Source: Flavobacterium columnare NBRC 100251 = ATCC 23463
Lineage (GTDB): Bacteria > Bacteroidota > Bacteroidia > Flavobacteriales > Flavobacteriaceae
Direction of reading: 5' to 3'
DNA: 64,000 bases
Assembly: GCF_002530675.1 (NCBI RefSeq)
Contig: NZ_PCMX01000018.1
Location: 1 to 64,000, forward strand
The translations under genes were made by a program, and so were the position numbers. The notes below the pieces were generated by a model. The model saw only the letters and a list, made by a program, of their open reading frames with translations. It was not told the origin of the DNA and made no database searches. Of the stretch, positions 22,467 to 61,070 are shown piece after piece; position 1 is the stretch's first letter; each line of letters begins with the position of its first letter.

Positions 22467-22474
22467 TACCTTTG
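22467..22474 (+). promoter_or_regulatory. -7 element TACCTTTG of the DUF983 gene
   Basis: A perfect TAnnTTTG, 18 bases before the ATG at 22493. It covers the alternative TTG start at 22472, which argues against that start. A good TTG at -33 is not seen. Confidence 0.55.
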
Positions 22475-22492
22475 ATAAAAAAATTTTTGCAA

Positions 22493-22885
22493 ATGTTAAA
22501 AAAAGGATTGAAAATCAATAGCATTTTAACAGGAAGTTGTCCTAAATGTCAACAAGAAAGCATGTATAAATCAAGCAACCTGTTTAACCCAAAGTATACA
22601 ATAAAAATGAATGAACATTGTTCACACTGTGGATTGCAGTACTCAATGGAACCTTCATTTTTTTATGGTTCCATGTATGTTAGTTACGCTCTAGGTGTTG
22701 CATTTGGCGTAGCTGCATTTATCATTTGTTACGTATTTATAAAAACGAGTCTAAAAACAGCTTTTATAGGCATTAGTTTAACTCTTATTCTTTTTATGCC
22801 TATTATTATGAGGCTTTCTAGGAACATCTGGATTAGTTTCTTTGTTTCTTATGATAAAAATTGGCAATTAAATTCCAAAAAGTAA
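22493..22885 (+). CDS. DUF983 family membrane protein
   Basis: About 130 residues. The start has two CxxC pairs (CPKCQQES and CSHCGL) that form a zinc-ribbon-like cytoplasmic part, followed by MEPSFFYGSMYVSYALG and two membrane helices (near 60-80 and 88-108 of this start). This matches DUF983. The function is unknown; some DUF983 genes elsewhere lie near cytochrome oxidase genes. The gene is convergent with the Pel-like operon across a shared inverted repeat. Confidence 0.85.
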   Translation: MLKKGLKINSILTGSCPKCQQESMYKSSNLFNPKYTIKMNEHCSHCGLQYSMEPSFFYGSMYVSYALGVAFGVAAFIICYVFIKTSLKTAFIGISLTLILFMPIIMRLSRNIWISFFVSYDKNWQLNSKK

Positions 22886-22975: not shown

Positions 22976-25900
22976 TTAAAATATATACTTATATCCCAAT
23001 CCAAAGGTATTAAAATTGTATTTAGACTGAAAATTAATATCAGCCGAAACTTTTAAGTAACTGTTTTTCATTACCTTATAATGAGTATTTACTCTAAAAT
23101 TCATAAAATTATCTTCAAAGGAATCAAAATAATACGCTCCTGAAGTATATAATTTAAATTTAGAATAATCATCTCCAAAGTATCTATTCCTAATTAGGTA
23201 AACAGGAGCTACTCTTACTCTTTCATCAATATTTGCAAACTGACATAACCCTTCTAAGTACGGAACTACTTTCCATTTTTTTTCTTTATTTGAAGCTGTT
23301 TTTATTCTAGAGCTTAAGGTAAAATTAAGATTTGAAGGACTAGGATAATAATCTGTTACGAAGTAGGTATCTAGCTCTAAAAATTCAAAATATCTGTTAT
23401 AGGCTGCATTCCATTGTAATTGATATATATTTTCGCGGTAAGCCTCCCAAAAATTAGCAGGGGCATAGTCTAAATTTGTACTTAAATTGTACTTCTTGGT
23501 TATTATATTAATTCCTCCTTTTGCATTGTAATACAACTTACCACTCCAATCTTTTTCTAAACCTAATCCGTAGGTATAAAAAAACTTATTGATCTGGTCA
23601 GACTGTTTTCTTTTAAACTCGTAGGCAAATTCTAATATGGTAGCTAAATTATTAGTTGTTTGATCTGTACCACTATACAACTCTTTATGTTTAACAAAAA
23701 AATCATGTGAATTTTTTTGCTTATCAAAATGACCGTATTTTATATAGTTTTGAAAATTGGTCTTTTTATTTACAAAATAGCTCAAAGTAGAGTTTGCATC
23801 TAGATAATCTCCATACAAATCTTTTAATTTTATTTGAATTTTTTCTTTGTTGATGGCTGTAAAAATAGTGGGGTATTTACGAATCAATTCTTCCTGTGTT
23901 TCTATATCAAAATAAAGAATTTGTTGATTTAGGTGTTCTTTTATTTCTTCAAATATTTTTTGATCTTTTATTTGTAATAATACACCACATGCTTCATCAT
24001 ACTTCCCTAGTACTTCATATATCTGAAACATTCTTTGTTTCATAGCTTCATCATTTGGATTTTGGCTTATATATTTACGATAATACTGTTCAAGTTCTAC
24101 ATACTGCCTTAGTTCAAACATCCATGACAAACGAGTATCTGGACTTATTAAGGATGTAAACTCTGACCAATTAATAGCATTTTGGTAATCTTCATTTTCA
24201 TTAACGTAACTCCAGCTAATATCTGAGACTAAATTTTCATTAAAATGAGTAGTAGCTGGATCTAGTGTATTCAAATATTTAAAAGCTTCTTCTTTTGCGT
24301 ATACAAGAGCATGATAAACATACGCTTCTTGGTTTTCGCAATTAGGTTCTAACTGAAATATTTTAAATAATACTTTTTTAATTTCATCATAATCCTCTGA
24401 TGCAGAAATAATAGATAAATATTCTTTCAATACAGATAATTTTTCGTTATTCCATTGATACTGATTGCATATCCATTTTGTATGTAATTCTTCAGACGAA
24501 TACCCTAGTATATTTGACAATTCAAAAGAATAATTAATATTGTGTTTAGAGGGGTACTTATCACAATGTTTTTCTAATAGCCCCCAAACTTCGTCACCTT
24601 TACCCTCCCAAGACATATAGGTAGCATATTTATTCCAGATAGCATAATTAATTTTAGGTTGACTCATCATTAAGACCAACAAATGTCTTTTTTCTTCTTC
24701 TAGTTTTTTATAATAATCTTCTACGCCTAATTTACCTGAAAGAAAAAGACCTCTGTTTTTTTCAAACAGTTTATATTCTTCCCATACTTTATCATAAATA
24801 AGATCCTCATCTATTGTTTTTTTCTCAAGCGTAAACGACAATCTATTACTAGATTTGAGAGAAACTAATTTACCTCCCATAAAATCTGTTATACTATATT
24901 TTTTGGATTGGCGAGCTAATTCTTCTTTATTCTTCTGTGTTAATTCATCAAAATAAACCCCCCAAGTATTCCCTTCTTCTGTAAATAAATTTGTTTCTTC
25001 TTGAACTGTATAACTTTCTTCTTTAGCTATATGTTTATAATTAGCCCCTCTCCATTTCATTACTATGGGGGCTGCATTTTTTACTGTATAAAACTCACTT
25101 TGTGGATAAATTTCTTTAAACTCTGTCAAAAAATCATCAAAAGTGCTGTATAATGTTTTTTTTCCTTTTTTCCAATTTAATCCTAAATCGTTTCTTAATT
25201 CATAATGATATTTTTTCTTTTTCTTTTCTTTAGCATTCCCAATCTGAAAAACGTCGTCTGGATGGACGAAATGAGTCCAGACACCAGTGTACAAATAGGT
25301 AGAAAAAATATTATAATACTTTTCATCATTAAAATAAAAACCACTCGATATCCTTGGATAATCAAATAAATCTTTGTGAAAGGGTTCAAAATCAAATTCT
25401 CTGTCTCCTCCTTCTTTTTTATCACCTAAATACAAACTTGCAAAATATTTTAAAGAAGGCATTCCTTTTTTTAACTGAACTATCCCATAAGGATCTATAT
25501 AATTAGAAGGGGGTACATAGCTCACTGGAAAATCTCCAAAATTATTAACTAACCATTTTTTCTTAGTTGCCTTCAAGGAAAAAAATATTTCTTCTGGATT
25601 TTCCCATTCTTCTTTTAATAACGAAACGTGATTATAACCATGAAATCCTAACTCATGATTGTCTTTAAGTAAATCATGGGTTAAAAAGTTAGAGGTTCCC
25701 TTTTGGGTTTTCCCTGTTCCTTGCATTTTTGCAAAATCCCATTGTTTAAAAGAAAAGGGAGCCCTTCTGATATCATCATAATCAAAAGCAAGTAATGCAG
25801 TATATTTAATATTATACTTTTGAGCTATTTTTTTCATATCAGGCCACCATTTTTTATACACAAACTCATTCATTGTTAAATTGTACTCGGTCTTAATAGG

Positions 25901-26764
25901 CTCTAATTTCACATCATATAACGGCGAAGGGAAATCATCTAAAAAGATTGTACTTGTATTAGCCAATGGATAGGGTATTCCAGACAACCCTCTTAATAGA
26001 AACGTAAAAAGTAGTCCTCTATCTCTTTTTTCAAATATTTTAGACGAGTTACAACAAATTACTTTCCCAAATCCTATATTATTTTCTAATAATAAAGGCA
26101 TAGTCATTTGATTATCTGACCAAATATTGATCCTTAGATCTTTTTTGAAATTAGATTTAGCAAAGGCAAAATGTTTGGTATCGCTATACAAATTAATTTC
26201 TCTTTTACCTGATAAAGGAATCGTATTTAGGCACATTCCCTTAGAGGTAATATCATAACTCAAATCCGAATCATAACGCATTCCCCAAAAAAAGATAAAG
26301 CGTTGATCTTCTCCTATATTGGGAAAAATTAGAGTTCCTCCTTTACTAACAAATTTCAACAAAACAGGTATGGTTTGATTATTCAGCCTTTTTGTATCAT
26401 TAATAACTAATATTCTAGCCGAACTTTCGATTTTTAACTGTTCGTTAAATCTATCTATTATTTTAAAGTTAAAAGGAATTTTTGTATAATCACATAACTT
26501 TCGAAAATGTTCGTAATAAGACATAGACAAATCGTCCTTAGAATCTAGTATATATTCTACAACGGGTCTTTTACTCAGACTTGAAGATTCATACGGTGAT
26601 AAGAAATCTTGTTGTTGCTTATTTCTTAAGTAATCATTTTTTAATCTATAAAGAGAATCTATACTATTACAGTTAAACAATGTTAAAGAAAATAAACAAT
26701 ACACCAAAATTTTAAAAGACCATATTGGAAATTTTACTTGAAAACGGTTTATTAATAATTTCAT
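22976..26764 (-). CDS. PelA-deacetylase / PelB-like fusion: DUF2194-type deacetylase, helical scaffold and outer-membrane barrel
   Basis: 1,262 residues. (a) Hydrophobic N-terminus (about 12-32) ending in LFNC, a possible but atypical lipobox. (b) About 65-265: Rossmann-like domain as in PelA/DUF2194 proteins (RILVINDTKRLN, GGTLIFPN). (c) About 270-480: polysaccharide deacetylase, with metal ligands IFLDDFPSP (Asp276/277) and GFHGYNH (His375, His379), then VPPSNYIDP. (d) About 640-1000: alpha-helical TPR-like repeats (NPNDEAMKQRMFQIYEVLGKYDEA in two helices). (e) About 1040-1262: alternating beta strands ending LGYKYIF, a C-terminal aromatic typical of outer-membrane barrels. In Pseudomonas the deacetylase is in PelA and the TPR plus barrel in PelB. 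Here one chain would deacetylate and export the polymer. It overlaps the upstream gene by 53 bases. Confidence 0.75.
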   Translation of the reverse strand: MKLLINRFQVKFPIWSFKILVYCLFSLTLFNCNSIDSLYRLKNDYLRNKQQQDFLSPYESSSLSKRPVVEYILDSKDDLSMSYYEHFRKLCDYTKIPFNFKIIDRFNEQLKIESSARILVINDTKRLNNQTIPVLLKFVSKGGTLIFPNIGEDQRFIFFWGMRYDSDLSYDITSKGMCLNTIPLSGKREINLYSDTKHFAFAKSNFKKDLRINIWSDNQMTMPLLLENNIGFGKVICCNSSKIFEKRDRGLLFTFLLRGLSGIPYPLANTSTIFLDDFPSPLYDVKLEPIKTEYNLTMNEFVYKKWWPDMKKIAQKYNIKYTALLAFDYDDIRRAPFSFKQWDFAKMQGTGKTQKGTSNFLTHDLLKDNHELGFHGYNHVSLLKEEWENPEEIFFSLKATKKKWLVNNFGDFPVSYVPPSNYIDPYGIVQLKKGMPSLKYFASLYLGDKKEGGDREFDFEPFHKDLFDYPRISSGFYFNDEKYYNIFSTYLYTGVWTHFVHPDDVFQIGNAKEKKKKKYHYELRNDLGLNWKKGKKTLYSTFDDFLTEFKEIYPQSEFYTVKNAAPIVMKWRGANYKHIAKEESYTVQEETNLFTEEGNTWGVYFDELTQKNKEELARQSKKYSITDFMGGKLVSLKSSNRLSFTLEKKTIDEDLIYDKVWEEYKLFEKNRGLFLSGKLGVEDYYKKLEEEKRHLLVLMMSQPKINYAIWNKYATYMSWEGKGDEVWGLLEKHCDKYPSKHNINYSFELSNILGYSSEELHTKWICNQYQWNNEKLSVLKEYLSIISASEDYDEIKKVLFKIFQLEPNCENQEAYVYHALVYAKEEAFKYLNTLDPATTHFNENLVSDISWSYVNENEDYQNAINWSEFTSLISPDTRLSWMFELRQYVELEQYYRKYISQNPNDEAMKQRMFQIYEVLGKYDEACGVLLQIKDQKIFEEIKEHLNQQILYFDIETQEELIRKYPTIFTAINKEKIQIKLKDLYGDYLDANSTLSYFVNKKTNFQNYIKYGHFDKQKNSHDFFVKHKELYSGTDQTTNNLATILEFAYEFKRKQSDQINKFFYTYGLGLEKDWSGKLYYNAKGGINIITKKYNLSTNLDYAPANFWEAYRENIYQLQWNAAYNRYFEFLELDTYFVTDYYPSPSNLNFTLSSRIKTASNKEKKWKVVPYLEGLCQFANIDERVRVAPVYLIRNRYFGDDYSKFKLYTSGAYYFDSFEDNFMNFRVNTHYKVMKNSYLKVSADINFQSKYNFNTFGLGYKYIF

Positions 26765-28655
26765 ATACCTCTAATTGATTACTATCAAATATTTTTTTAA
26801 TATTTCTGTTCCTCTTTTTTAAACGTTTAAACCTATCTAATAATTCAGCATTTAATTCTTCATATTCAGAAGTAGTGTATTTAAAAACGAAAATACTTGA
26901 GGGTAAAATAAATTCTGGATGCTTAATTAAAAATTTATTTCTTTTTATATTCTTAGCATAAATAGAATCTACTTTAAGGTAATGGGGGGCAAGAAAATCT
27001 TTATAAGGTATAAAATAACGTCTTCCACTACTTAGATTAAAGTATTCATCTTTATTTACTACCGCATAGGTTCTATCTAAATAACCTCTCAAAATCATTT
27101 CGTTTACTGCTAGAATATTTTGATGTAACTTTTCCGTCTCATTCATGGGTAAAAACAAAACATTCTTTTCTAAGTAAACAAAAATAGAGATAGAAAAAAG
27201 TACAACAAAACCTCCTTTGTATATAGGGTATCTTTTCTTTGAAAACATTTTAAGAAAATCTGACACAATTGCTATATTTATCCCCATCAATATGGGTATA
27301 AAAACAGATAAAACTTTAAATAATACGTCTTTATCTATCCATTCGTTATCTACTTGAGTCAACAAATAAACAGCTGTTACAAATAGAAAAACCAAAACTT
27401 TTTTCCGCCATCCTCTTTTTAAAAAAATAGCTGATAATAAGTTAAGTATAAATCCTATTATAAATATAATCTGATAATAAAACATTAACCTATCTATTTC
27501 AATTCTTATAAAAGGGTTTGAAAAGGACAATTGTACATCAATTAAGGTTCTTCTCAGAATATCATTAAAACTTTCTTGGTGAATAAGCAAGAAAGAGGAA
27601 TAAACGGATACAACGATAATCAAGGAAAGAACATACATTTGGAACACTACCGATGATTTGTTTTTTTTAAAATACACGATTACTAGAAAGATCACCAAAA
27701 AGGGCAATAGGAAAAGAAATGCATATAAGTCTAATAATCCTATTGCTATAAAGGCTAGTAAAAACTTGAAATATTGTTCTTTCCTTGTATAAGGCAACAT
27801 CCTTAGTTTGGTCATATAGATTACTAATGGTAGAATCAATGTAAATGCCAGCAAAAGAGAACAACTTTGATAAAAATTTGTAATATCCGATGGAAGGAAT
27901 GTAAATCCTAAAATATAATATACGGTTACAAATATTGGTATAATAATCATTGATTTAGTTATTTTTTGAATAAACCAAAAAACAACGATTGTCATTGATA
28001 ATAATTGAAAAATAGAGTATACATAAATACTTATTTCTAAGGAAGAGTTTGTTATATGAGAAAGAAAGCTCACAAAAGCATAAACCGCTTCTGGGTTAAC
28101 TTCTTCTGTAAACCATCTATTGTTGTCTTTTGCTTTTATTCTTTCAAGTGTATCAAACCAATTACTTGAAAAAAGATAATGGTCAAACTTTATAAAATAA
28201 AAGGAAATAACACAAATAGAAAATAATAGAAATAGTAGAGAAGAAATAATATACACATTTTTTCTTTCTATCTTTAAGTGGGCATTTGAAAAAATAACTT
28301 TCCAATTAAATTCTTTATTCTCTACTTTTTTTAATACCAAAAGGAGACGTTTTTTAAACTTACTAACAATAATACTTGGCAATTTTATAGGATTTACGAT
28401 CCTTAAATAATCACATAATCCAACGACTACAAGTAAGCCTGTAACAACTAAACCATCATATATTTCTAAATTAATGGTTATAAATAAAATAACAATGAGT
28501 AAACTTAAATACTCAAAATATTTTCGAATAATGCAGTCTAATAAAAAATTAAAATCACGACGCAACAACACGTATTTACGAGTTGTAAACAAAATGATTA
28601 AAACAATAACTAAAATTTTTAGTATTCCTACCCCTATAGCTGTGTAAACATTCAT
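26712..28655 (-). CDS. Large multi-pass membrane protein of the Pel-like operon, unrecognised
   Basis: 647 residues with roughly 12 hydrophobic segments in the first 480, then a soluble C-terminal part of about 150 residues. Between the third and fourth segments lies a polar loop (FDTLERIKAKDNNRWFTEEVNPEAVYAFV) with acidic residues, which recalls GT-C glycosyltransferases. I cannot assign it to PelD or PelE: no GAF or GGDEF-like domain is visible. It takes the place in the operon where inner-membrane Pel components would be expected. It overlaps the next gene and follows the hydrolase gene after one base, so translation is probably coupled. Confidence 0.6.
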   Translation of the reverse strand: MNVYTAIGVGILKILVIVLIILFTTRKYVLLRRDFNFLLDCIIRKYFEYLSLLIVILFITINLEIYDGLVVTGLLVVVGLCDYLRIVNPIKLPSIIVSKFKKRLLLVLKKVENKEFNWKVIFSNAHLKIERKNVYIISSLLFLLFSICVISFYFIKFDHYLFSSNWFDTLERIKAKDNNRWFTEEVNPEAVYAFVSFLSHITNSSLEISIYVYSIFQLLSMTIVVFWFIQKITKSMIIIPIFVTVYYILGFTFLPSDITNFYQSCSLLLAFTLILPLVIYMTKLRMLPYTRKEQYFKFLLAFIAIGLLDLYAFLFLLPFLVIFLVIVYFKKNKSSVVFQMYVLSLIIVVSVYSSFLLIHQESFNDILRRTLIDVQLSFSNPFIRIEIDRLMFYYQIIFIIGFILNLLSAIFLKRGWRKKVLVFLFVTAVYLLTQVDNEWIDKDVLFKVLSVFIPILMGINIAIVSDFLKMFSKKRYPIYKGGFVVLFSISIFVYLEKNVLFLPMNETEKLHQNILAVNEMILRGYLDRTYAVVNKDEYFNLSSGRRYFIPYKDFLAPHYLKVDSIYAKNIKRNKFLIKHPEFILPSSIFVFKYTTSEYEELNAELLDRFKRLKKRNRNIKKIFDSNQLEVYEIINKPFSSKISNMVF

Positions 28656-28656
28656 A

Positions 28657-29439
28657 CTAATCCTTTATTTTTTGCAAAGATATTTCTGATATACTGTAAG
28701 TTATATTTTCTGATTTAATTCTTTTTCTGATTTTTTTGATTTGACTTTCATCAACGGCATATTCCAGCAGTAGTGGTTTAATTTTGTATTTGTTTATTGC
28801 TTTTTTTAAGTTCCCTAAACGTTCTGAAAAACTTTCACTATTTCTTATTAAATATCGTTTTTCTTGAAAATCATAATCGGTGTATACCGATTCTACTAAA
28901 ACATAATCAATTTGATTATGTAATACTTTTACCAAATCTAGTCCTGCATTTTGAACTAAAACTTTATTAGGATATTCTCTTCTAATATCTCCTATAAATG
29001 CTACTAAATTATTCTGTAAATTGTACTGTACGCCATGTTCCGTATAGTTATCTATATTGTCTAAAAAAAGACCATCGTAGCCCATATAAAAAATATTTTG
29101 TATACGGCTTTTTAAAACCTTTTGAATTTTTGATGAACCAATATCTAGATAATAACTATTCCAATCTGTATTTTTTTCACTAACAGCGCTTTTAAGTAAT
29201 TTATAATCCTTAGCTCCTTCATTAATTTCTCCAAGGCTTATATAAGCTATTACCTTTTTATTATTCCTTCTTAAATACGAAACTTCATTGTATGTAAAAT
29301 GGGCTGACTCTACAATTAATAGATCATAACCGGAAACTTTTGTTATATCAAATTTCCCATAACAAACTAAAAATTTAGTTTTTGAATGAGAATTAAAAGA
29401 AAAACAAAGAAATAACATTATAAGTTTAAAATGACGCAT
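28657..29439 (-). CDS. GH114/PelA-type glycoside hydrolase (alpha-1,4-galactosaminidase-like)
   Basis: 260 residues with a signal peptide (MRHFKLIMLFLCFSFNSHS). A TIM-barrel of the GH114/TM1410 type follows: YDLLIVESAHF, KKVIAYISLGEIN, GYDGLFLDNIDNY with the likely catalytic Asp residues, and YVLVESVYTDYDF with a Glu. This family contains polygalactosaminidases and is related to the hydrolase domain of PelA, which cuts Pel polymer in the periplasm. Here the hydrolase is a separate protein while the deacetylase is on the 1,262-residue chain. It overlaps pelG-like by 14 bases. Confidence 0.8.
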   Translation of the reverse strand: MRHFKLIMLFLCFSFNSHSKTKFLVCYGKFDITKVSGYDLLIVESAHFTYNEVSYLRRNNKKVIAYISLGEINEGAKDYKLLKSAVSEKNTDWNSYYLDIGSSKIQKVLKSRIQNIFYMGYDGLFLDNIDNYTEHGVQYNLQNNLVAFIGDIRREYPNKVLVQNAGLDLVKVLHNQIDYVLVESVYTDYDFQEKRYLIRNSESFSERLGNLKKAINKYKIKPLLLEYAVDESQIKKIRKRIKSENITYSISEISLQKIKD

Positions 29440-31018
29440 AATAATAATAATCCATTTTTTTAAAAAATTTATACAAGTGATATGATGTAAATAACATAAA
29501 GAACAAATTCCCTACTAAAAAACCTACAACACTAAGGTCGTAAGAGAAAAATCTACTAAAAAATAATCCAAAGACTAAATTAATCACAAAAGAATACAAA
29601 ATACTCTTAAGAGGGATTTGTGGTTGTCCTAAGGTAAAAAAATGTAAAACATTTAAAACCGAACATGAAAAGAAAAAATATCCCAAGGAACCTATTATAC
29701 AAACCTGTCTATTAATACTATTTAATTTAATTTCAAAACAGGCATCATATCCATACGGTGAATATAATATAAATAATTCTATTATAAAAGCAAAACAACT
29801 TGTAAGTAGCAATAATAAAAAATTCCCTAAATAACTCTCTACAAACCCTTTTCCATAATTTTGTATACTGTCAAGAGTTACCTCTGATTGCAATCTATCT
29901 AGTAATTTTGCAAACCTAACTATTCCGAATTCAAAAACACCAGCAACCAAAAGATACATAAGCAATGCTATATCCATTCCTATTTCATAATCTTTTTCAA
30001 AGAAAATAAAATACAAAAAACGTTCCTTTTCATGTACCGACCAAGCAATGATTCGATCTAAAAAAACATATAAAAAAAATAGCATTCCATAAAAAAAATA
30101 CATATAATTATTATAGATAATAAACTCGTTTTTTACATCTTTTGTTGTATAACTGGGGTCAAAAGCGTTATTTTTTTTAAAAAATCGAATTAAATATACC
30201 CATAAAATTAGAACTACAAAACCTAAACCTATCCAATGAGTAAAATAAATATACAAAGGAGTAAAAACTTTTAGTGCCAAAGAAAAAGCAGAACCTAGTA
30301 TAATAACAACAGGAATTATGATTCGTTCTTTAAAAACATATAAAGGAGCTATCATCAATAACATAGAACCTATAAAAATAGAGTATATCCCACTTAAAAT
30401 TGCCATTTGAAATGCAAAAAATTCTAATAAAAAAGACAATAAAACAAATATAGCATTTACAAAAAACAAGAGTTTAAATCCCGTTTTCATGAGATATACA
30501 GTGGTTTGAAAAACCATTTTATTGTTTTTATGATTCCAATAAAAAGATATTTGCTTACTAATAACAGTTACAACACCTCCTGTAAGAACTAAACTGGTTA
30601 TAACCCCTATTACCACAGAAGTAGATTGTAAAATATTAAAATCTGAATATACCCATAAGGAATAGCCAAAAAAAACAACACAAAATACTTGAAAGAAAAT
30701 AGGTAAAACATAAAATATACCTACCAAATAATCTTTGAAAAAATATTTAAGATCTTCCTTTGTTAGATTTATTGATACACGATCCTTTTTTTCAACTACA
30801 ATCTTATCCTTATATCTTTCTAATATTTTCCCATATACTACTTGTGAAAGGTTCGCTATTGTTGAAAAACCATAATCATTCTGAACGTCTATCTCTCGAA
30901 TCCCGAAGGATTCAATTATTGCTTGTGTTACATTAACACTCATAGGTTTTCCTACTCGTTTTTGAACTAAAAAAACGAGTTGTTCTACTTTATCATTTTC
31001 TAATTCCTCATTCATCAT
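29426..31018 (-). CDS. pelG: PelG-like polysaccharide transporter (MOP superfamily)
   Basis: 530 residues. About 12 membrane helices from residue 95 on, and a C-terminus LYKFFKKMDYYYYASF like that of PelG. The middle has FLYVFLDRIIAWSV followed by FFEKDYEIGMDIALLMYLL, corresponding to the PelG stretch with the conserved Asp/Trp. An N-terminal cytoplasmic extension of about 90 residues (LVFLVQKRVGKPMSVNVTQAI) is longer than in the 456-residue Pseudomonas protein. The likely role is moving Pel-type polymer across the inner membrane with PelF. It overlaps pelF-like by four bases. Confidence 0.75.
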   Translation of the reverse strand: MMNEELENDKVEQLVFLVQKRVGKPMSVNVTQAIIESFGIREIDVQNDYGFSTIANLSQVVYGKILERYKDKIVVEKKDRVSINLTKEDLKYFFKDYLVGIFYVLPIFFQVFCVVFFGYSLWVYSDFNILQSTSVVIGVITSLVLTGGVVTVISKQISFYWNHKNNKMVFQTTVYLMKTGFKLLFFVNAIFVLLSFLLEFFAFQMAILSGIYSIFIGSMLLMIAPLYVFKERIIIPVVIILGSAFSLALKVFTPLYIYFTHWIGLGFVVLILWVYLIRFFKKNNAFDPSYTTKDVKNEFIIYNNYMYFFYGMLFFLYVFLDRIIAWSVHEKERFLYFIFFEKDYEIGMDIALLMYLLVAGVFEFGIVRFAKLLDRLQSEVTLDSIQNYGKGFVESYLGNFLLLLLTSCFAFIIELFILYSPYGYDACFEIKLNSINRQVCIIGSLGYFFFSCSVLNVLHFFTLGQPQIPLKSILYSFVINLVFGLFFSRFFSYDLSVVGFLVGNLFFMLFTSYHLYKFFKKMDYYYYASF

Positions 31019-32499
31019 TTTCTCATTTCTAATAATTCTTCGTATATTTCTTCATACTGATTGATAAACTTATCTATAGTAAAGAATTCCTCTACTCTTT
31101 TTCTACAAGCTATCTTCATACTTTCTCTTAAAGTATGATCTTGCAATAATTTTAGAACAGCTCGTCCAATATCATCTGGATCTTTAGGCTTACATAATAT
31201 TCCACATTCTTCGTTTAAGGCCTCTGCTACCCCCCCTACATCCGTAGAGACAACAGGTATACCACAACTCATAGATTCTATAATTGTATAGGGAAATCCT
31301 TCTGAAATAGAAGTTAAAATAGAAATATCTCCTTCACAAAATACCACTTCAGGTCTGGGGTTAGGCCCTAAAAAGAAAAAATTTTGTTGAAGTCCTAATT
31401 CTTCTATTAACTTTAAACATTTTGAAGTATATTCTGGAACTGCGTCATTTTCACCATGTACTCTATATTGCACGTTTGGCAACACATTAGCTACGACTCT
31501 ACAAGATTTTATCATAGTTAAAATATCCTTTAGCTCAAAAATACGGGCCATAGCCACTACTGTTGGAATCCCTTTAAATTCAGTTGGTTTTTCAAGAGGT
31601 TTAAAACGCAAATGATCAATTCCATTATAAACCACTCTTAATTTGCTTTGTTCAGCACCATACATCAATTCCCATTTAAAATTAAACTTATTAACAGACA
31701 TGATAATATCTGATTGGTGATAAGAAGCTCTTGCTGAACATTCTGACAAACGAATTAAAAAATCTTTTAAGAAGTATGAACTCTCCGATTGGCTAATAGC
31801 TAAAATTCTTTCCCGTATATAAACACCATGCTCTGTTAATAAAATAGGGGTTCCATAAAGATTTTTTTGTATTATGGCAGGTAAAACTATAAAACTAGAA
31901 ATAGTTAAATGAATAATATCTGTTTTTGGAAAATCAATAGAAATAGGTAATAAAAAATGATAAATCCAACGCATTGCATAGGTCAAATCCAAAAGAGAAA
32001 TTTCTTTTATCCCATAATGTTCCGTATAAAAAAGGATTTCTTCTTTAAAAATGTCCCATATTTTTTCATTTTTAAAAACAAGTTTATAATCATTCTCCTG
32101 AAAAAAATACCACATTCCAATAAAAACATCTATCAACTCATCTGCATCAATGTGTTCTGAGTAAATACAGCCCAACAGTCTTTTAAAGAGAGGCATAAAT
32201 TTTGTCTCAAGATCTTCTAAAAAAAGAGTTTCTTTTTTTAAAATAAAGTCATAATATGTATCATCAAATCGAATAACTTCTTTAGGTTCTAAAGCATACC
32301 AAATAGGTACCTGAACAACATCTAAAATTGAGTCATTTAATGAATATTTAGGCTTAGTTTCGTAGAATGCATTTACAGAATAAATCTTAAAATTAAATTT
32401 ATTGATTTTATTACACAGTATATGCGCCCAAGTTGACACACCTCCTCCATGAAAAGGATAAGTCCCCTCCAAAGCCATAAGGATACTTGATTTGGACAT
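31015..32499 (-). CDS. pelF: PelF-like GT4 glycosyltransferase
   Basis: 494 residues, close to the 507 of Pseudomonas PelF. The N-terminus LEGTYPFHGGGVSTW is the PelF/DUF3492 signature. The C-terminal half has the GT4 retaining-transferase motifs VVYNGID, VVAMARIFELKD, LTSISEGFPYTIIESMS (E-x7-E) and GIPVVSTDVGGVAE. Predicted to be cytosolic and to polymerise UDP-HexNAc into the Pel-type chain. It is the first gene of the five-gene operon and starts 24 bases after the stop of the FAD oxidoreductase, so the operon may begin at that upstream gene. Confidence 0.85.
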   Translation of the reverse strand: MSKSSILMALEGTYPFHGGGVSTWAHILCNKINKFNFKIYSVNAFYETKPKYSLNDSILDVVQVPIWYALEPKEVIRFDDTYYDFILKKETLFLEDLETKFMPLFKRLLGCIYSEHIDADELIDVFIGMWYFFQENDYKLVFKNEKIWDIFKEEILFYTEHYGIKEISLLDLTYAMRWIYHFLLPISIDFPKTDIIHLTISSFIVLPAIIQKNLYGTPILLTEHGVYIRERILAISQSESSYFLKDFLIRLSECSARASYHQSDIIMSVNKFNFKWELMYGAEQSKLRVVYNGIDHLRFKPLEKPTEFKGIPTVVAMARIFELKDILTMIKSCRVVANVLPNVQYRVHGENDAVPEYTSKCLKLIEELGLQQNFFFLGPNPRPEVVFCEGDISILTSISEGFPYTIIESMSCGIPVVSTDVGGVAEALNEECGILCKPKDPDDIGRAVLKLLQDHTLRESMKIACRKRVEEFFTIDKFINQYEEIYEELLEMRK

Positions 32500-32523: not shown

Positions 32524-33579
32524 CTATGAAAGTAATTTTTTTTTATGAAATCTTTCTGTAGAAATATTTCTATCTAATTCTATACCATTTTCAAGAAAAT
32601 TAAATAAATTATACGCTAACCAAGGGCCTAACATAACTCCTCTAGTCCCTAATCCGTTTAAGATATGCAATCTTTTATAAACGGAATGAGTTCCCAACAA
32701 AGGTCTTCTGTCTTTTACGGTCGGTCTGACCCCCGCAAAATGCTCAACAACTTCAAAATCACAATCAATTAATTCTCTTAAGTCATTGATCAATTCCATT
32801 TTTCCTTCTTCAGTAGGAATATCTGTCTTATCCTTCCAATTATAAGTAGCTCCTATCTTAAACAAGGAGTTCCCTATTGGCAAGATAAAAATGCTAGATT
32901 TTAAAACCACATCTAATTTTAGATTGGGGGCTTTAATTATTAATAATTCTCCTTTTGTTCCATCTAAAGGAAGATCATTAAAAAAAGGATTATTTACCAA
33001 TCCATACCCTTCTGCAAAAATTATATTTTTATAAAAATCGCCTTTATAAAGTATAGATTCGTCTAAAAATTCAATAGAATTATATTCAAATCGTTCGTTT
33101 ATAAAACTATTTTCCTCTTTTAAGCGATTAATATACGCATCTATTAAGAGAGCAATTTCAACATAGCCTGTATACAAAACCTCTCCAAAACCATAATCAG
33201 AAGCAATTGATTCATATTTTTTATGAATAATTTTTGGAGAAAGGAAAGGAGATAAATTCGTTTTATCACACGCTTGAAACCAGTTGTTCTGCTCTTCAAT
33301 AGAAGCAAATTTTCTAAAAACAGGTATGGGAAATACAAAATTTGTTTTTAATTTAGCTTGAAGAGTCTCTAAAAAGGGCAAACTAAAATGAATTTGTTCC
33401 TTTGCTTTCCAAACTTCGCTAAATCTTTTTAGTATAACAGGATTATAAAGCCCCCCTGCAATCCTAGAAGAATTGGTAGAAAAATCATCTAAAACTCGTA
33501 CTGACTTTCCATTGTTTTTTGCTATTTCAGCAAAACTAATACCTGCTATACCTGAACCAACAATTAAATAATCGATCAT
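32524..33579 (-). CDS. FAD-dependent oxidoreductase (DAO family)
   Basis: 351 residues. The N-terminal dinucleotide motif GSGIAGISFAEIA, a glycine-rich IAGGLYNP, and the C-terminal FAD motif HILNGLGTRGVMLGPWLA fit the D-amino-acid oxidase/glycine oxidase fold. The substrate is unknown. In Flavobacteriaceae a gene of this kind commonly follows gldN. A TATCTTTG element at 33591-33584 ends only four bases before the ATG, which would leave almost no leader; either the true start is later or the element is fortuitous. Confidence 0.85.
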   Translation of the reverse strand: MIDYLIVGSGIAGISFAEIAKNNGKSVRVLDDFSTNSSRIAGGLYNPVILKRFSEVWKAKEQIHFSLPFLETLQAKLKTNFVFPIPVFRKFASIEEQNNWFQACDKTNLSPFLSPKIIHKKYESIASDYGFGEVLYTGYVEIALLIDAYINRLKEENSFINERFEYNSIEFLDESILYKGDFYKNIIFAEGYGLVNNPFFNDLPLDGTKGELLIIKAPNLKLDVVLKSSIFILPIGNSLFKIGATYNWKDKTDIPTEEGKMELINDLRELIDCDFEVVEHFAGVRPTVKDRRPLLGTHSVYKRLHILNGLGTRGVMLGPWLAYNLFNFLENGIELDRNISTERFHKKKLLS

Positions 33580-55795: not shown

Positions 55796-56608
55796 TTATA
55801 ACACCTGCTTTCTTATTATTTTATTAAAGAGTCGATACCCTAATACAGAACGTAGGGTACTCATGGCGTTTGCATCAAAACCAACGGTATAACGGGTAAA
55901 TTTTACACGTGGTTCATTGGCTATTTTAAAAAGGGTTTCTACGACTTCTTCTATCAAATTTGTATTTTTTGATTGTTTTTTGATTAATATCCCTGAAATT
56001 TTATCCATCATAAGATCATATACATCTATCCCTGTATTTTTACTTTTTACTACGTTTTTTTGGAAGGCAGTAGGGGCATTTCCAAATTGCACAGTGCTTA
56101 CTCCTATTCCAAAGTTCATCAGTTCATACGACATACATTCTGAAAAACTTTCTACTGCGCATTTAGTAGCATGATAAAAACTTCCTAAAGGTAAATTCAC
56201 TAAACCGGCAATAGATGTAACGTTTATAAAATGCCCAAACCCTTGCTTTCTAAAAACAGGTATAAAAGCACGACAAACTTTTACACATCCTAACCAATTT
56301 GTGGAAACAATATTATCTATACCTTTATCTTCTGAAAATTCAACAAATGAGCGATAGCCAATACCTGCGTTATTTATAATAACATTAATAACAGGATGGT
56401 TTTCAAGTATTTCTTGCTTTGCTTTTTCTATGCTTTCTGTATTTGTAACATCAAGCAAATAGCTACTTATGTTTGGTAGATCCGCTATTTCTTTGCCTTG
56501 TTCTAAACAAATCATGGTAGCAATAACATGCCATCCTTTTGCTGCAAAATATCTTGCTGTAGCGGCTCCTATACCACTAGAAGCTCCTGTTATTAGAATA
56601 GTTTTCAT
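55796..56608 (-). CDS. SDR-family oxidoreductase
   Basis: 270 residues. Classical short-chain dehydrogenase: TGASSGIGAATARYFA (cofactor site), NNAGIGYRS, catalytic Ser in NVTSIAG and YHATK (Tyr-x3-Lys). It is the last gene of the overlapping operon that comes from the right edge. In flexirubin/aryl-polyene clusters SDR enzymes reduce ketoacyl intermediates; here the substrate is inferred from the context only. Confidence 0.88.
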   Translation of the reverse strand: MKTILITGASSGIGAATARYFAAKGWHVIATMICLEQGKEIADLPNISSYLLDVTNTESIEKAKQEILENHPVINVIINNAGIGYRSFVEFSEDKGIDNIVSTNWLGCVKVCRAFIPVFRKQGFGHFINVTSIAGLVNLPLGSFYHATKCAVESFSECMSYELMNFGIGVSTVQFGNAPTAFQKNVVKSKNTGIDVYDLMMDKISGILIKKQSKNTNLIEEVVETLFKIANEPRVKFTRYTVGFDANAMSTLRSVLGYRLFNKIIRKQVL

Positions 56609-56611
56609 TTT

Positions 56612-57898
56612 TTAATTTCGTTTGTCTATTAATGTAATGGGTTTACGGCTCATAGGAGGGAAAATTATTTTTTGTAATTCTTCCATAGCTAAAACTTCAA
56701 CTTTAGGAGAAACTCTTAGTTTCGCTCTAAAATGATCTTTAATTTCGGTTAAAAATCGTTCCGTTGTATCCGTTGATGCAATCTTAATTATAATTTCATC
56801 TGTTCCTAGATCATTTGTTGATATTTCAATCAAATGGCTTTTTATAGATTCAAAACAAGTCATCAGATCGTGCATAGCGGGTGGATATAGAGTTGTTCCT
56901 TTGTACTTAATCATGTGTTGTTTTCTTCCTATCACAGGACCTACTCGTTGTGTATTTCTACCACAAGCACAGGGTTGTGTGTGAAGTTGTACAATATCTC
57001 CTGTTTGAAAACGCAATAAAGGCATTCCTTCTATTCCTAGAGTTGTTATAACTAGTTCTCCTGATCCTTCAGTAACTGGGTTATTACATTCATCTAATAC
57101 TTCTGTAATAATTAATTCTGGATGATGATGTCCTCCTTGAAATTCTTTACATTCTGTAAATGCTGTACTCATTTCGGTAGAAGCGTACGTAGAGTACAAT
57201 GGAACATTCCACTTTTTAGTAATTTTTTGAGTTAAAAGAGAAGGTGAAAAATCTTGATTACGCAATGATTCTCCTATACAAATAACCCCTTTTACGCTTG
57301 ATTTTTGATAATCGATTCCTTGCTTTTCTGCGTATTCAATCATTTTTAATACAAAGGAAGGTACTCCAATTAAATATTTGGGATGGTATTTGAGGATGGA
57401 ATCCCATTGGAGTTCAGGAATCCCTGCTCCTACTCGAATAATACCTGCTTTTAATTTCCGCAAGCCCATAAAGTAAGCCAATCCTGCCATAAAACGACGA
57501 TCCATCGTGGTCATTAATTGCACCACATCGCCTTCTTGTATGCCTGCACAGGCAAAAGACAGGGCTTCATTATAAGCCAAACGATCCAAATCTGAATCTG
57601 TTAGACCAAAAGTAACTGGGTTTCCTAGTGTTCCTGAAGTGGTGCTATAATCAATAATTTTATGTCTAGGTACGCACAAAAAATCATCGTTGTGTTGTTG
57701 TAAATCATTTTTTGAGGTCAACGGTAATTTTTGTAGGTCTTCTAGTGTTTGTATTTGTTTTATATCTACCTGATAATGATCAAACATATTTTTATAATAT
57801 GTTGAATGTGTGTTTAAATATACCAGTAATTCTTTTAATTTTTGCTCTTGAAATTCTTTAATTGCAAGAGATGATAGTGTTTCTATTTCTGGTATCAT
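56612..57898 (-). CDS. Phenylacetate-CoA-ligase-like adenylating enzyme
   Basis: 428 residues. PaaK-like AMP-forming ligase: STTSGTLGNPVTFG (P-loop-like), YSTYASTEMSTAF (A5-type motif), ELVITTLGIEGMPLLRFQTGDIV, then CACGRNTQRVGPVIGRKQHMIKYKG with a cysteine-pair CxC. It probably activates an aromatic or fatty acid as AMP ester. It overlaps the C45 gene by four bases and lies three bases before the SDR gene. Confidence 0.85.
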   Translation of the reverse strand: MIPEIETLSSLAIKEFQEQKLKELLVYLNTHSTYYKNMFDHYQVDIKQIQTLEDLQKLPLTSKNDLQQHNDDFLCVPRHKIIDYSTTSGTLGNPVTFGLTDSDLDRLAYNEALSFACAGIQEGDVVQLMTTMDRRFMAGLAYFMGLRKLKAGIIRVGAGIPELQWDSILKYHPKYLIGVPSFVLKMIEYAEKQGIDYQKSSVKGVICIGESLRNQDFSPSLLTQKITKKWNVPLYSTYASTEMSTAFTECKEFQGGHHHPELIITEVLDECNNPVTEGSGELVITTLGIEGMPLLRFQTGDIVQLHTQPCACGRNTQRVGPVIGRKQHMIKYKGTTLYPPAMHDLMTCFESIKSHLIEISTNDLGTDEIIIKIASTDTTERFLTEIKDHFRAKLRVSPKVEVLAMEELQKIIFPPMSRKPITLIDKRN

Positions 57899-59553
57899 GA
57901 TAATTTCTTTTTTGTCTTTTTTAAATAGTCTTGAACCTTATTTCGATCCAATAGGGTTGTAATTTCTAATGTAAGTGCTTTTTCAAAATTATGTAATGCC
58001 TCTGTATACAGTTTATGAGAGTATTGATAAACGCCTAATTTATAATAAACAGACCATAGTTTAGGATTTAATTCTTGGTATTTTCTAATAAAATCAGGTG
58101 TTAGAGTTTCTTTTTCATTAATTGTTTTATCTAGTAGTTTGTCATATTTCCTGTAGAGTTGATAATCAGCATACGCTTTAGTGTCTAGAAAAGAATCTTT
58201 AGCAATGGTTAGCTCAGGTAAATGAGTGACTTTTGTTTTTTGTTGATCAAAAACTTTATTTAAATCATAGGCTACAAAGGCTCCTAATTGATAGGGACTA
58301 GAAGAAACCCACATGATACGACTTTCTGGTTTAAAAATTACGGCATGATGTGCTAGAAGTTGATTAATAGCTTTTTCATTTCCGTAACCAATAGTCCCTT
58401 CTTTTAACCCTTCTTTATTTCTGAGAATTTGAGCTATTTTCTCGGGGGTCATTTTTTCTTCATTTGCTAATAATTCTTGTATTCTTTCCATACGATACAA
58501 AGAATGGCTTTCTTTTATATGTTTTATATTCCTTTTGTCATTTTGATAAGATGAACTCTGAAAATGATTCGAACAAACTAATTGATTGGTGTTTTGTACT
58601 TCGTATACGCCAAAATTATTAGGAGATACTTCTATAATTACTGCTTTTTTATCTTTTGCACTGCTTACTAAGATAGACTCTGACACAAAAACGGGTCTTT
58701 GTTTTGCTATTTTTATTGCTTCATCTATAGTTGTGGCGTATTGTAATATTTCTCTCGTAAGAAGAGAAATGGGTGTTTTAGCTACTAATGGCATTTTAGA
58801 TTTTCCGGCATTTATGGTAACGGTTAGTCCTTCTTTATTCATTCCTGAAAGTACACCTATCATACCCGCCCAACTAACACTAGCAAAAGGGATTCCTTTT
58901 TCTGGATTAACAAAACTGATTACCTTGTCTTCAGCAAAATCATCTCCAGCATAAAAATCTAAATTTCTACCGATTAGCAATTCTCCATCCATTGTTTTAT
59001 TTCCCCAAACAGCTAATGAAGTACATCCTATTAATGCTAAATCCTGTACAGCGTGTCCTATATCATGGGCTCCGTGTAAATATAAACTTCTTAGATAAGG
59101 TGATGCCATATAATTAAAAGAAGTATCGGTATATTGGGATACCCCATATATTTCCGTTTTGTATTCCTCTTTTATATTCAAATAGAGTTTTCTGTTGTAC
59201 CATTTTAAAAAAGTACGTAATAGTTTTTGTTTAAATTTAGAAGGAACAATTTTTCCTAGGTGATTAAAAAAAATTCGTTCTTGTTTTTTTACTAAATTTT
59301 CGGCTAAGGCTCCTGAAAGCAATCCTAATTGAGAAGGATTGCCTTGAATATGTAATTCCCAAATTTTATGAGCATTTCTTACTAAATATCCTTGTTGATG
59401 GGTTACGAGCGTATCGGACAAACGAATTACCGCAGGTTTATCACTTTCTTTAGGAAGATTTAATGGCAGATGATGAACTGATTTATGAATTCCACACGAA
59501 TAAAAAATCAAAATAACGAAAAAAGTGCCTATATGCTTTTTTGAGTTATTCAT
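57895..59553 (-). CDS. C45-type acyltransferase/hydrolase lipoprotein with TPR tail
   Basis: 552 residues. A lipoprotein signal (FVILIFYSCGIH, lipobox YSC) is followed by an Ntn-hydrolase domain of the acyl-CoA:6-APA acyltransferase (C45) family. The autoprocessing nucleophile is Cys177 in LIGCTSLAVWG, with GRNLDFYAGDD and ASVSWAGMIGVLSGMN downstream. The last 100 residues form a TPR-like part (LNPKLWSVYYKLGVYQYSHKLYTEAL). In flexirubin clusters such proteins are thought to take part in acyl transfer at the envelope. It overlaps the oxidoreductase gene by four bases. Confidence 0.82.
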   Translation of the reverse strand: MNNSKKHIGTFFVILIFYSCGIHKSVHHLPLNLPKESDKPAVIRLSDTLVTHQQGYLVRNAHKIWELHIQGNPSQLGLLSGALAENLVKKQERIFFNHLGKIVPSKFKQKLLRTFLKWYNRKLYLNIKEEYKTEIYGVSQYTDTSFNYMASPYLRSLYLHGAHDIGHAVQDLALIGCTSLAVWGNKTMDGELLIGRNLDFYAGDDFAEDKVISFVNPEKGIPFASVSWAGMIGVLSGMNKEGLTVTINAGKSKMPLVAKTPISLLTREILQYATTIDEAIKIAKQRPVFVSESILVSSAKDKKAVIIEVSPNNFGVYEVQNTNQLVCSNHFQSSSYQNDKRNIKHIKESHSLYRMERIQELLANEEKMTPEKIAQILRNKEGLKEGTIGYGNEKAINQLLAHHAVIFKPESRIMWVSSSPYQLGAFVAYDLNKVFDQQKTKVTHLPELTIAKDSFLDTKAYADYQLYRKYDKLLDKTINEKETLTPDFIRKYQELNPKLWSVYYKLGVYQYSHKLYTEALHNFEKALTLEITTLLDRNKVQDYLKKTKKKLS

Positions 59554-61070
59554 TTTGAAATTTCTTCATTTATTTTATTAATTAAATATTTATCGCCAAC
59601 AATCTCGGAACAAGTAGCTACAGCTCCTATCGTTACGCCTAACACTCCGTGCATTTTAATACTCTGTCCTGTAAGGAAAAGATTTTCTATTTTTGTTTTA
59701 GACGAAATAAAGGTTAACATAGGATTATTAGAATCTTTTACGTATCCGTACAAATTACCGTTTTGTCCTCCTATATAATCTCTATAAGACAAAGGAGTAG
59801 ACGCATACACTGATTTTATACAAGAGCGTATGTTGGGGATTTTTTTTTCAATTTCATTTAAAAAAATTTCAATTTTTTGTTTTTTAAAATTTTCATAATC
59901 TTCACCTCTTTCTTTTGATTCTGAAACGGTATTATGAGTGGTACTCCATTTTTCTACTTCTTCAAAACGCATATAGGTTAAGGCTGTAAGACTTTCAGCC
60001 CATTGTTGATTATCCGAAGCGATATTCATTGATAACATATAACTTTCTGGCCATGATTGTTCTGTATACTCACTGGCTTGCCAAATGCGTTTGTGATCTT
60101 TAAAATGGTAGCAATTATGATTTAAATAAGGAAATGTTTGGGGTTTAAAAACTATATAAATGCTAAATGGGGCAATTTGAGCTTCAAGATTTTGAATTCG
60201 TGTAAAATAGGCTTTTCTAAAATATTCTTCTCCCACTAATTTTAAGGTGGTTTTGGGCTCTATATTGGAAATAAATGTTTCTGCAAAATACTCTTCTCCA
60301 TTTTTAGTTGAAACGGAAACGATTTTTTGATCCTTTACTTGAAATTTATTTACTTCTTGATGTTTAAAAACTTCACCGTTATATTTACGGATTATTTTTA
60401 TAAGTTGTTTGGTTATCTGACTCCCTCCGTTTATACAACGCCACGCACTTTGGATATAGGAGTTAACAGATAAGGCGTGTACATAAAAAGGGGTTTTATC
60501 AGGTACGCCTGCATAAAGGAAATTAGAGCCTACTAATACTGCTTTTAACTTTTCATTAGATGTGAGTTCTTCAAAATATTGTTTTGCGTTTATAGACAGG
60601 ATTTCTTGTTGATAACCTCCCTCTGTTTTCAAGTTATACAAGGGGAAGGAATTACAGACGTACTGCATTTTTTGACAATATTCCTTTAAGTTTTCTTCCT
60701 CTTCTGGAAAAAAGGAAACCAGTTGCTTAATAAAATTTTCATATCCTTGGGCATGAGGGTATTTATTAGGATCGTTATCAAAAGTAATATAGTCATAAGC
60801 ATCCTCCTCCATTTTTTTTAGTTTTAGCTCATCTATTATTTCTATATACTTAAAATAACTATGTAAATTTTGACCTTCACACAGGCCTCCTATGTAGTGG
60901 ACTCCTGTATCAAAAATAGTTTTATCTCGCACAAAGGTTTGTAAATTGCCTCCATATTGATTATTTTTTTCTAAAACACAAACCTTTTTTCCTTCTTTTG
61001 CTAAGATAATAGCGGAAACCAATCCTCCTAATCCACTTCCTACAATAACAACATCGTACTTTTTTTTCAC
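59550..61070 (-). CDS. CrtI-like FAD-dependent oxidoreductase
   Basis: 506 residues. N-terminal FAD motif VVIVGSGLGGLVSAIILAKEGKKVCVLEKN, then GGNLQTF and FDTGVHYIGG. C-terminal FAD-contact NLFLTGQSIKMHGVLGVTIGAVAT. The arrangement fits the phytoene-desaturase/retinol-saturase group. A role as desaturase or saturase on the polyene chain of a flexirubin-type pigment is likely from context. It shares one base with the MMPL gene. Confidence 0.85.
   Translation of the reverse strand: MKKKYDVVIVGSGLGGLVSAIILAKEGKKVCVLEKNNQYGGNLQTFVRDKTIFDTGVHYIGGLCEGQNLHSYFKYIEIIDELKLKKMEEDAYDYITFDNDPNKYPHAQGYENFIKQLVSFFPEEEENLKEYCQKMQYVCNSFPLYNLKTEGGYQQEILSINAKQYFEELTSNEKLKAVLVGSNFLYAGVPDKTPFYVHALSVNSYIQSAWRCINGGSQITKQLIKIIRKYNGEVFKHQEVNKFQVKDQKIVSVSTKNGEEYFAETFISNIEPKTTLKLVGEEYFRKAYFTRIQNLEAQIAPFSIYIVFKPQTFPYLNHNCYHFKDHKRIWQASEYTEQSWPESYMLSMNIASDNQQWAESLTALTYMRFEEVEKWSTTHNTVSESKERGEDYENFKKQKIEIFLNEIEKKIPNIRSCIKSVYASTPLSYRDYIGGQNGNLYGYVKDSNNPMLTFISSKTKIENLFLTGQSIKMHGVLGVTIGAVATCSEIVGDKYLINKINEEISK

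Follow-up and report, generated by a model that had tools for sequence, protein, structure and literature searches.

In Pseudomonas and Bacillus, the Pel exopolysaccharide is switched by binding of cyclic di-GMP (c-di-GMP) to PelD, and a streptococcal PelD is described as lacking the GGDEF part (PMC7112168, PMC12345266). The full-length PelA protein of Pseudomonas binds the tetratricopeptide repeats (TPRs) of PelB, by model via its deacetylase domain, and this binding raises deacetylation (PMC12022489). The current study concerns a Pel-like operon in a window of 64,000 nucleotides of Flavobacterium columnare (contig NZ_PCMX01000018.1). All coordinates given below are positions in this window, all features lie on the minus strand unless stated otherwise, and residue numbers are those of the window proteins.

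Two kinds of Pel deacetylase have been described. In Pseudomonas PelA (CE21), motif 1 consists of H526, D528 and D530, and the MT3/CM3 arginine is described as missing; the D160/E218 pair of its hydrolase domain was mutated to abolish hydrolysis (PMC12022489). The Bacillus cereus enzyme PelADA (PDB entry 9ZAU), founding member of CE26 and CBM114, deacetylates alpha-1,4-linked N-acetylgalactosamine (GalNAc) oligomers and is required for Pel-dependent biofilm; its catalytic residues are D262, D263, H350, H354, R458, H488 and D491 (PMC13254593). A separate hydrolase gene is reported as common in Gram-positive Pel loci (PMC7112168). The outer-membrane barrels of PelB, BcsC and PgaA have 16 strands (PMC12141448), and a fusion of enzyme and pore is on record for cellulose, namely BcsZC in Zymomonas (PMC7112194).

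A Pel-like operon in F. columnare

Five open reading frames (ORFs) at positions 22,976–32,499 encode, according to the ORF list, proteins of 1262, 647, 260, 530 and 494 residues. An earlier note, made from the DNA letters, had described them as overlapping or nearly touching, and this follows from the coordinates, which give overlaps of 4, 14 and 53 bases and a gap of one base; the motifs it quoted (LEGTYPFHGGGVSTW, DD, GFHGYNH and a terminal F) are all present in the translations. The five-gene observation is confirmed and conserved, and because the same order recurs across loci that bear the 1262-residue protein, the order is not due to chance. We put the probability that these genes represent a distinct Bacteroidota kind of Pel-like operon for a synthase-dependent exopolysaccharide at about 0.8. 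The earlier note had read the locus as the Pseudomonas PelA and PelB proteins cut up in a new way; the fusion of deacetylase, scaffold and barrel stands, but the parentage does not, the locus resembling a Gram-positive-type Pel set with an added outer-membrane exporter.

A predicted deacetylase joined to an exporter

The 1262-residue protein (22976..26764) starts with a signal region (26669..26764) that ends in a cysteine at the lipobox position, C32. This residue is present in 104 of 114 aligned fusion proteins, suggesting a lipid anchor. The following part (24998..26563) matches Pfam DUF2194 over residues 73–586 (E = 5.9e-70). A profile made from 20 fusion sequences and searched against the PDB matched B. 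cereus PelADA (9zau, E = 1e-77) over chain residues 29–532 of 593, covering both the carbohydrate-binding and the esterase domains. By alignment, the equivalents of the PelADA catalytic set are D276, D277, H375, H379, R471, H501 and D504. D276, D277 and R471 were kept in all 114 aligned fusions and the other four in 113 of them. The sole exception is a lone fusion copy (L078:4129-8076), in which four of these seven predicted residues are gone and whose 20 kb contain no other operon gene.

The N-terminal half is thus best described as a predicted PelADA-type deacetylase of the Gram-positive kind, and not as one of the Pseudomonas PelA type, because it is homologous to 9ZAU with all catalytic residues kept. 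A CE21 deacetylase moved from PelA onto PelB, as the earlier note had proposed, would fill the same overall roles, and PelA and PelB of Pseudomonas do bind each other (PMC12022489). However, motif 1 of the fusions consists of an adjacent DD pair, R471 is invariant (114/114), the best PDB relative is B. cereus PelADA, and no PelA chain was found among the 60 listed of 61 PDB matches to the profile. A PelA parentage of the deacetylase was rejected because of the differences in motif 1 and R471 and because of the best PDB relative, and we consider it highly improbable. DUF2194 behaves as the PelADA family, as judged by the match to 9ZAU, the kept catalytic residues and a free-standing form in a Pel cluster of Cetobacterium somerae, the protein of which matched the fusion profile with E = 3.6e-43.

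The exporter half (residues 590–1262) was modelled by AlphaFold2 on 62 sequences (mean predicted local distance difference test, pLDDT, 85.9; predicted TM-score, pTM, 0.61). The model has 19 helices (residues 653–984; 23813..24808) followed by 15 strands (residues 987–1261; 22982..23806), which is the arrangement of exopolysaccharide export barrels, a barrel after a TPR-like scaffold. In the scaffold region, the profile of fusion sequences matched TPR proteins in the PDB (best E = 2e-6). The last 220 residues, which the earlier note took for an outer-membrane barrel, were modelled as one, although the barrel starts near residue 987 and not near residue 1040. It is one strand short of 16, within a stretch of low confidence (model residues 593–611) at which the window protein is nine residues shorter than the relatives compared.

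Foldseek placed BcsC at rank 1 for this half (E = 2.5e-7). Structural re-alignment of the Foldseek candidates with VIA-align gave PgaA (Z = 21.0; 253 residues, 3.0 Å), PelB of the PelBC complex (Z = 20.6; 306 residues, 4.8 Å) and three BcsC entries (Z = 20.5, 19.8 and 19.5), the top three rows being tied; the best other barrel, a porin, reached 15.4. Taken together, these results suggest that the exporter half has the fold of synthase-dependent exopolysaccharide exporters. Profile searches, AlphaFold2 and VIA bear out that one chain unites a deacetylase with a scaffold and barrel resembling those of PelB, and on these predictions the 1262-residue protein is a true fusion.

Predicted polymerase, hydrolase and transporter

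The 494-residue product of 31015..32499 is a GT4 glycosyltransferase. It scored 171.7 bits against the NCBIfam PelF model NF038011, which has an equivalog cut-off of 100, and contains the Pfam domains DUF3492 and Glycos_transf_1. Its identity as PelF, on which the earlier note had made its Pel reading depend, is secure by profile homology.

The 260-residue protein (28657..29439) was predicted to be a stand-alone PelA-type hydrolase (GH114/GH166-like), and both Pfam (Glyco_hydro_114, E = 1.4e-22) and the best PDB relative, the PelA hydrolase (5tcb, E = 5e-16), agreed with the earlier note on this point. Residue E183 aligns to the sole glutamate that differs between the PelA chains 5tcb and 5tsy, the latter of which we take to be the E218A form. 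D127 aligns to the PelA aspartate 58 residues before the E183 position, a spacing like that of D160 and E218 in the Pseudomonas protein. The catalytic pair of a PelA-type hydrolase domain is therefore present in the window operon, and both residues were kept in 110 of 110 hydrolases of 240–300 residues, a count which leaves split frames aside. As the stand-alone form is common in Gram-positive Pel loci, this gene need not be a re-cut piece of Pseudomonas PelA.

A second GH114-type match was seen in the genome of the window (G000:C16:12126-12461). In many marine Flavobacteriaceae (L150-L152, L160-L162, L165, L174, L175, L178 and others) a second, longer GH114 gene lies directly upstream of PelF, and in L175 it is preceded by a short extra PelG-like ORF.

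The 530-residue protein (29426..31018) resembles the inner-membrane transporter PelG and has an N-terminal soluble extension. Its match to Pfam PelG (E = 1.1e-4, 21.7 bits) spans nearly the whole profile but is weak and lies below the cut-off of 29 bits; the earlier note, too, had called the protein PelG-like. Of the 28 members of the transporter family, the window protein included, 17 matched PelG at E≤0.5 (best 3.1e-13). These data weakly suggest a divergent PelG. NCBIfam gave no match for the PelG-like protein, the fusion or the 647-residue protein.

A predicted GT-C-fold protein as fifth component

The gene at 26712..28655, which the earlier note had passed over, is the most surprising part of the operon. 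No Pfam family was found in a consistent number of members of the 647-residue protein family (at best 2 of 62), a sequence search of the PDB gave no convincing relative (one match, E = 0.44), and a comparison with the small protein beside the Cetobacterium DUF2194 gene gave no match. The AlphaFold2 model (pLDDT 87.0, pTM 0.88) consists of extra N-terminal helices, a GT-C core from about residue 125 and a C-terminal domain. GT-C proteins made up the top 12 Foldseek matches (best E = 1.8e-4, with a query TM-score of 0.38) and the first 47 VIA rows, as judged by the title of the entry or, where a chain belongs to a complex, by the known identity of that chain; the first other VIA row had Z = 8.1. 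In the best VIA row Z was 18.8, with a root-mean-square deviation of 8.9 Å over 427 residues, and Pmt4 had Z = 15.8 (4.3 Å, 344 residues). Oligosaccharyltransferase, ArnT, DPY19 and Aft enzymes were among the matches. The protein is accordingly described here as having a predicted GT-C glycosyltransferase fold. No described Pel operon is known to have a GT-C-fold gene.

Among 112 copies, Y559 and D563 were kept in 112, D441, N635 and W166 in 111, and D158 in 90. D158 is located just after the first GT-C helix, presumably the usual place of the GT-C catalytic acid; D441 belongs to a loop further along the chain. In the other 22 copies D158 is replaced by N, H or S. An HD-domain gene (phmmer, E≤1e-10) was found in exactly the 22 operons without D158 (L081-L083 and L085-L103) and in no other of two sets of 40 and 80 loci, some of which are too short to reach the place where such a gene would lie. 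Pfam HD_5 was found in three of three HD genes checked, and that of L081 also has a GAF domain. The GYP motif is the hallmark of HD-GYP enzymes; it was complete in one of the 22 HD proteins, and in three the motif pattern was not found. The same 22 operons contain a second PelF-like match.

Two roles for the GT-C protein have to be considered, which are about equally likely and not mutually exclusive. It may be a non-catalytic coupling part that replaces PelD and PelE, neither of which is in the operon. The C-terminal residues Y559, D563 and N635 are conserved above D158, the gene was retained in operons that lost D158, and the GPI-transamidase chains 7wld_U, 8imx_U and 7w72_U, which we take to be PIG-U, were among the VIA matches. 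PIG-U of GPI transamidase is an inactive subunit of GT-C fold. However, D441 is almost invariant, and D158 was kept in each of the 90 copies whose loci yielded no HD gene (some few loci end before the expected place of that gene), a pattern resembling a kept active site. A coupling role is plausible, with odds somewhat short of even.

The second role is that of an active transferase using a polyprenyl-phosphate sugar, in which case the Pel-derived machinery would make a different polymer, related to Pel but bearing branches or substituents. The predicted fold, the conservation of D441 (111/112) and of D158 in most copies, the latter presumably a catalytic acid, and the presence of the gene in every operon seen complete favor such a decorating enzyme. 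The loss of D158 in exactly the operons with an HD gene argues against it, since a conserved role cannot hinge on D158 in all copies, and the five-gene operon has no further gene able to make a polyprenyl-phosphate sugar. We regard a decorating role as a tentative possibility.

Conservation and distribution

The 40-locus and 80-locus sets were chosen because the fusion was present, and the 80 were retained from a total of 173 relatives. The order PelF, PelG, (HD gene), hydrolase, GT-C, fusion was found in 38 of the 40 loci, including L097, whose hydrolase frame is split in two; the parts are arranged differently in L081, and L078 has the fusion alone. In the second set it was found in 66 loci, including L156 with the fusion in two frames and L167 with the fusion cut by the contig end. 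Of the remaining 14, two had the same order with broken frames, 11 were cut by a contig end and one (L172) had no upstream genes. The arrangement, for which the earlier note had suggested a survey of Bacteroidota genomes, is spread over this phylum and goes well beyond a single strain. The 23.7 kb locus L172 (Aureibaculum luteum) contains the fusion and a GT-C remnant only, with no PelF, PelG or hydrolase found, and keeps the active-site residues. The idea that loss of the operon always goes along with loss of the active site was dropped, as L078 lost these residues and L172 kept them.

DUF2194 was detected in 46 of 395 Bacteroidota genomes at E≤0.001, and 28 of these were above the cut-off. 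In 27 of the 28 the frame had 1,264–1,349 residues, and one (G338) had a short partial match. PelF was above its cut-off in 23 of 296 Bacteroidota genomes, all among the 27 with a DUF2194 ORF of fusion length; the other four of the 27 fall outside the 296-genome sample. PelF and the fusion thus occur in the same genomes within that sample. The window fusion was matched in 23 of 199 genomes of the genus and in 5 of 149 genomes drawn from the family, its own genome being included in both counts. It is 86% identical in the best segment to proteins of Flavobacterium davisii and F. covae, which we take to be fish-associated flavobacteria of the F. columnare group.

In 103 complete full-length operons, identities correlated between genes with coefficients of 0.88–0.97 (shuffling each pair 200 times gave at most 0.15), values which partly reflect shared species history. 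The operon is patchy in its distribution and fixed in its make-up. A search of the open-access literature, excluding bioRxiv and many subscription journals, gave no description of the arrangement among the matches listed.

Beside the complete operon of L091, a second, fragmentary set of pel-gene matches was seen (L091:15273-19088). Three operon contigs (L109, L124 and L167) are filed as metagenome-assembled genomes of Limnohabitans, Sphingobacterium thalpophilum and Bifidobacterium breve, and are probably misbinned flavobacterial contigs.

Regulation

No GGDEF match was found in the genome of the window, in a search whose control gave a signal in 8 of 14 cases, and none was found in 37 of 40 carriers; one of these 40 (G075) has only the lone L078 fusion. 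PF16963 gave no match in the genome of the window either, but its control was silent too, so this is not evidence of absence. No PelD gene is present in the operon; the search did not extend to a GGDEF-less PelD in other parts of the genome. With GGDEF domains nearly absent, it seems that a Pel-like system can function in the absence of a regulator regarded as central.

Scans for promoters were at chance level (62 found, shuffle mean 65.7) and those for terminators slightly above it (6 against 3.4 in shuffles), and neither was used.

Insertion site and state of the operon

The operon is bordered by two genes outside the Pel system, a flavin-dependent (FAD) oxidoreductase gene (32524..33579) and a DUF983 gene on the plus strand (22472..22885). 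In 29 of 29 loci of the genus these two genes are neighbors without room for an operon; the loci are the best-scoring ones of 59 genomes with a match among 61 searched, the genome of the window having been set aside. One of the 29 genomes, G544, has the operon on another contig. Since the border genes adjoin in all these relatives and the G+C content of the operon (0.279) is lower than that of the remaining window (0.321), the data point to a gain of the operon as a block in this clade. Plasmid searches with tblastn gave three records for the fusion and, at E≤1e-40, ten for PelF (Deinococcus, Streptomyces and Thermus), too few to place the operon.

The operon may have decayed in this lineage and make nothing. 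A short in-frame stretch is absent from the window barrel, and several operon genes have broken frames in the records of F. davisii (L108) and F. covae (L110). On the other hand, the window has no broken frame among its five genes, and none of the seven predicted deacetylase residues is lost. For F. covae, the frame of the neighboring ABC-F gene is altered too, which suggests sequencing errors in that record and not decay. Decay is for these reasons considered unlikely.

Elsewhere in the window, a tight cluster on the minus strand (55796-63973) encodes an MMPL-type transporter with a C-terminal acyltransferase match, an oxidoreductase resembling carotenoid isomerases and desaturases, a C45-type acyltransferase and a short-chain dehydrogenase/reductase. 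It is possibly a pigment or lipid pathway.

Proposed mechanism and its weighing

We infer the substrate and the direction of flow as follows. In the cytoplasm, UDP-GalNAc would be polymerized by PelF; transport of the resulting chain over the inner membrane would fall to the PelG-like protein. The CBM114/CE26 half of the putatively lipid-anchored fusion would strip part of the acetyl groups from the chain, and the helical scaffold would hand the positively charged chain to its own C-terminal outer-membrane barrel. The stand-alone hydrolase may trim or release the polymer. The GT-C-fold protein would fill the place of PelD and PelE; it may serve for coupling at the inner membrane, decorate the polymer in the periplasm as a sugar transferase, or do both. 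By analogy with Pseudomonas, deacetylation may be coupled to export, as the earlier note had suggested. This idea fits the measured interaction of PelA with PelB, a contact which the fusion would make permanent.

Several observations weigh against a Pel-like exopolysaccharide operon. The window PelG-like protein scores under the Pfam cut-off, 11 of the 28 transporter members had no PelG match at E≤0.5, and in three relatives the PelG-like proteins had no match at E≤0.01. An hhalign comparison with one Cetobacterium PelG sequence gave E = 0.074 and a probability of 0.8%, and no PDB chain was matched by the PelG-like profile. The Foldseek order for the exporter half leads only with BcsC, PgaA being at rank 38 and PelB outside the best 50, and most other rows are filled by general porins (OmpG and others) and TPR proteins. 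The window barrel lacks nine in-frame residues of one strand that are kept in the relatives compared; with this stretch missing and 15 strands in the model, the fusion copy of the window may be impaired, and the missing stretch may be a real change or an assembly error. Two fusion copies (L078 and L172) have no adjoining PelF and PelG. The polymer sugar is putatively GalNAc. No look-alike of PelC, PelD or PelE was found among the five genes, and PelC and PelE were not sought elsewhere in the genome.

The locus nevertheless represents a novel Pel variant that is both genuine and conserved. It can be speculated that the Bacteroidota possess a third, c-di-GMP-independent Pel architecture, in which PelADA and the exporter are joined and the PelD/PelE core has been swapped for the GT-C protein, the latter being an active decorator in one branch and a dead enzyme under an HD-domain partner in the other. 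This wider proposal is rather doubtful at present.

For Pel, poly-N-acetylglucosamine (PNAG), cellulose and alginate, the link between modifying a matrix sugar and exporting it is not yet settled. In Pseudomonas the deacetylase and the exporter must find each other, whereas here they are one chain, and the fusion is natural evidence that their partnership is the working unit. It is also a simpler object for structural work. The GT-C protein adds a fifth part that is so far unexplained. Should a Pel-like product be made, many flavobacteria of marine and freshwater habitats would be predicted to have a matrix polymer.

Comparison with known systems

In the fusobacterium Cetobacterium somerae (NZ_CP092520.1), GH114, DUF2194, PelF and PelG are found in one cluster, much as in the window, where the PelG match is weak. 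The DUF2194 protein of Cetobacterium, however, is free-standing (609 residues) without scaffold or barrel, and the cluster includes a GAF protein. The annotation of the 19 kb lists no GT-C gene, and of the two hypothetical proteins beside the pel genes, the one compared with the GT-C family gave no match.

The PgaA/PgaB (PNAG) and BcsC/BcsZ (cellulose) systems likewise combine a helical scaffold and a 16-strand barrel with a polymer-modifying enzyme, but they have other polymers and other synthases and no PelADA domain.

The pelABCDEFG system of Pseudomonas aeruginosa shares with the window operon PelF, a PelG or PelG-like transporter, a hydrolase domain and the joint action, in the window a predicted one, of a deacetylase and a TPR/barrel exporter. 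It differs in that its PelA carries both the hydrolase and a CE21 deacetylase, with PelB as a separate, longer protein associated with a PelC ring. The Pseudomonas system is also regulated by PelD and c-di-GMP.

The pelDEADAFG operon of B. cereus is alike in its PelADA-type deacetylase with the same catalytic set, its PelF, its PelG-like transporter and its separate PelAH-type hydrolase. Unlike B. cereus, the window operon has a GT-C-fold protein and neither PelD nor PelE, and its predicted PelADA continues into a scaffold and a barrel of the outer membrane, in a Gram-negative envelope.

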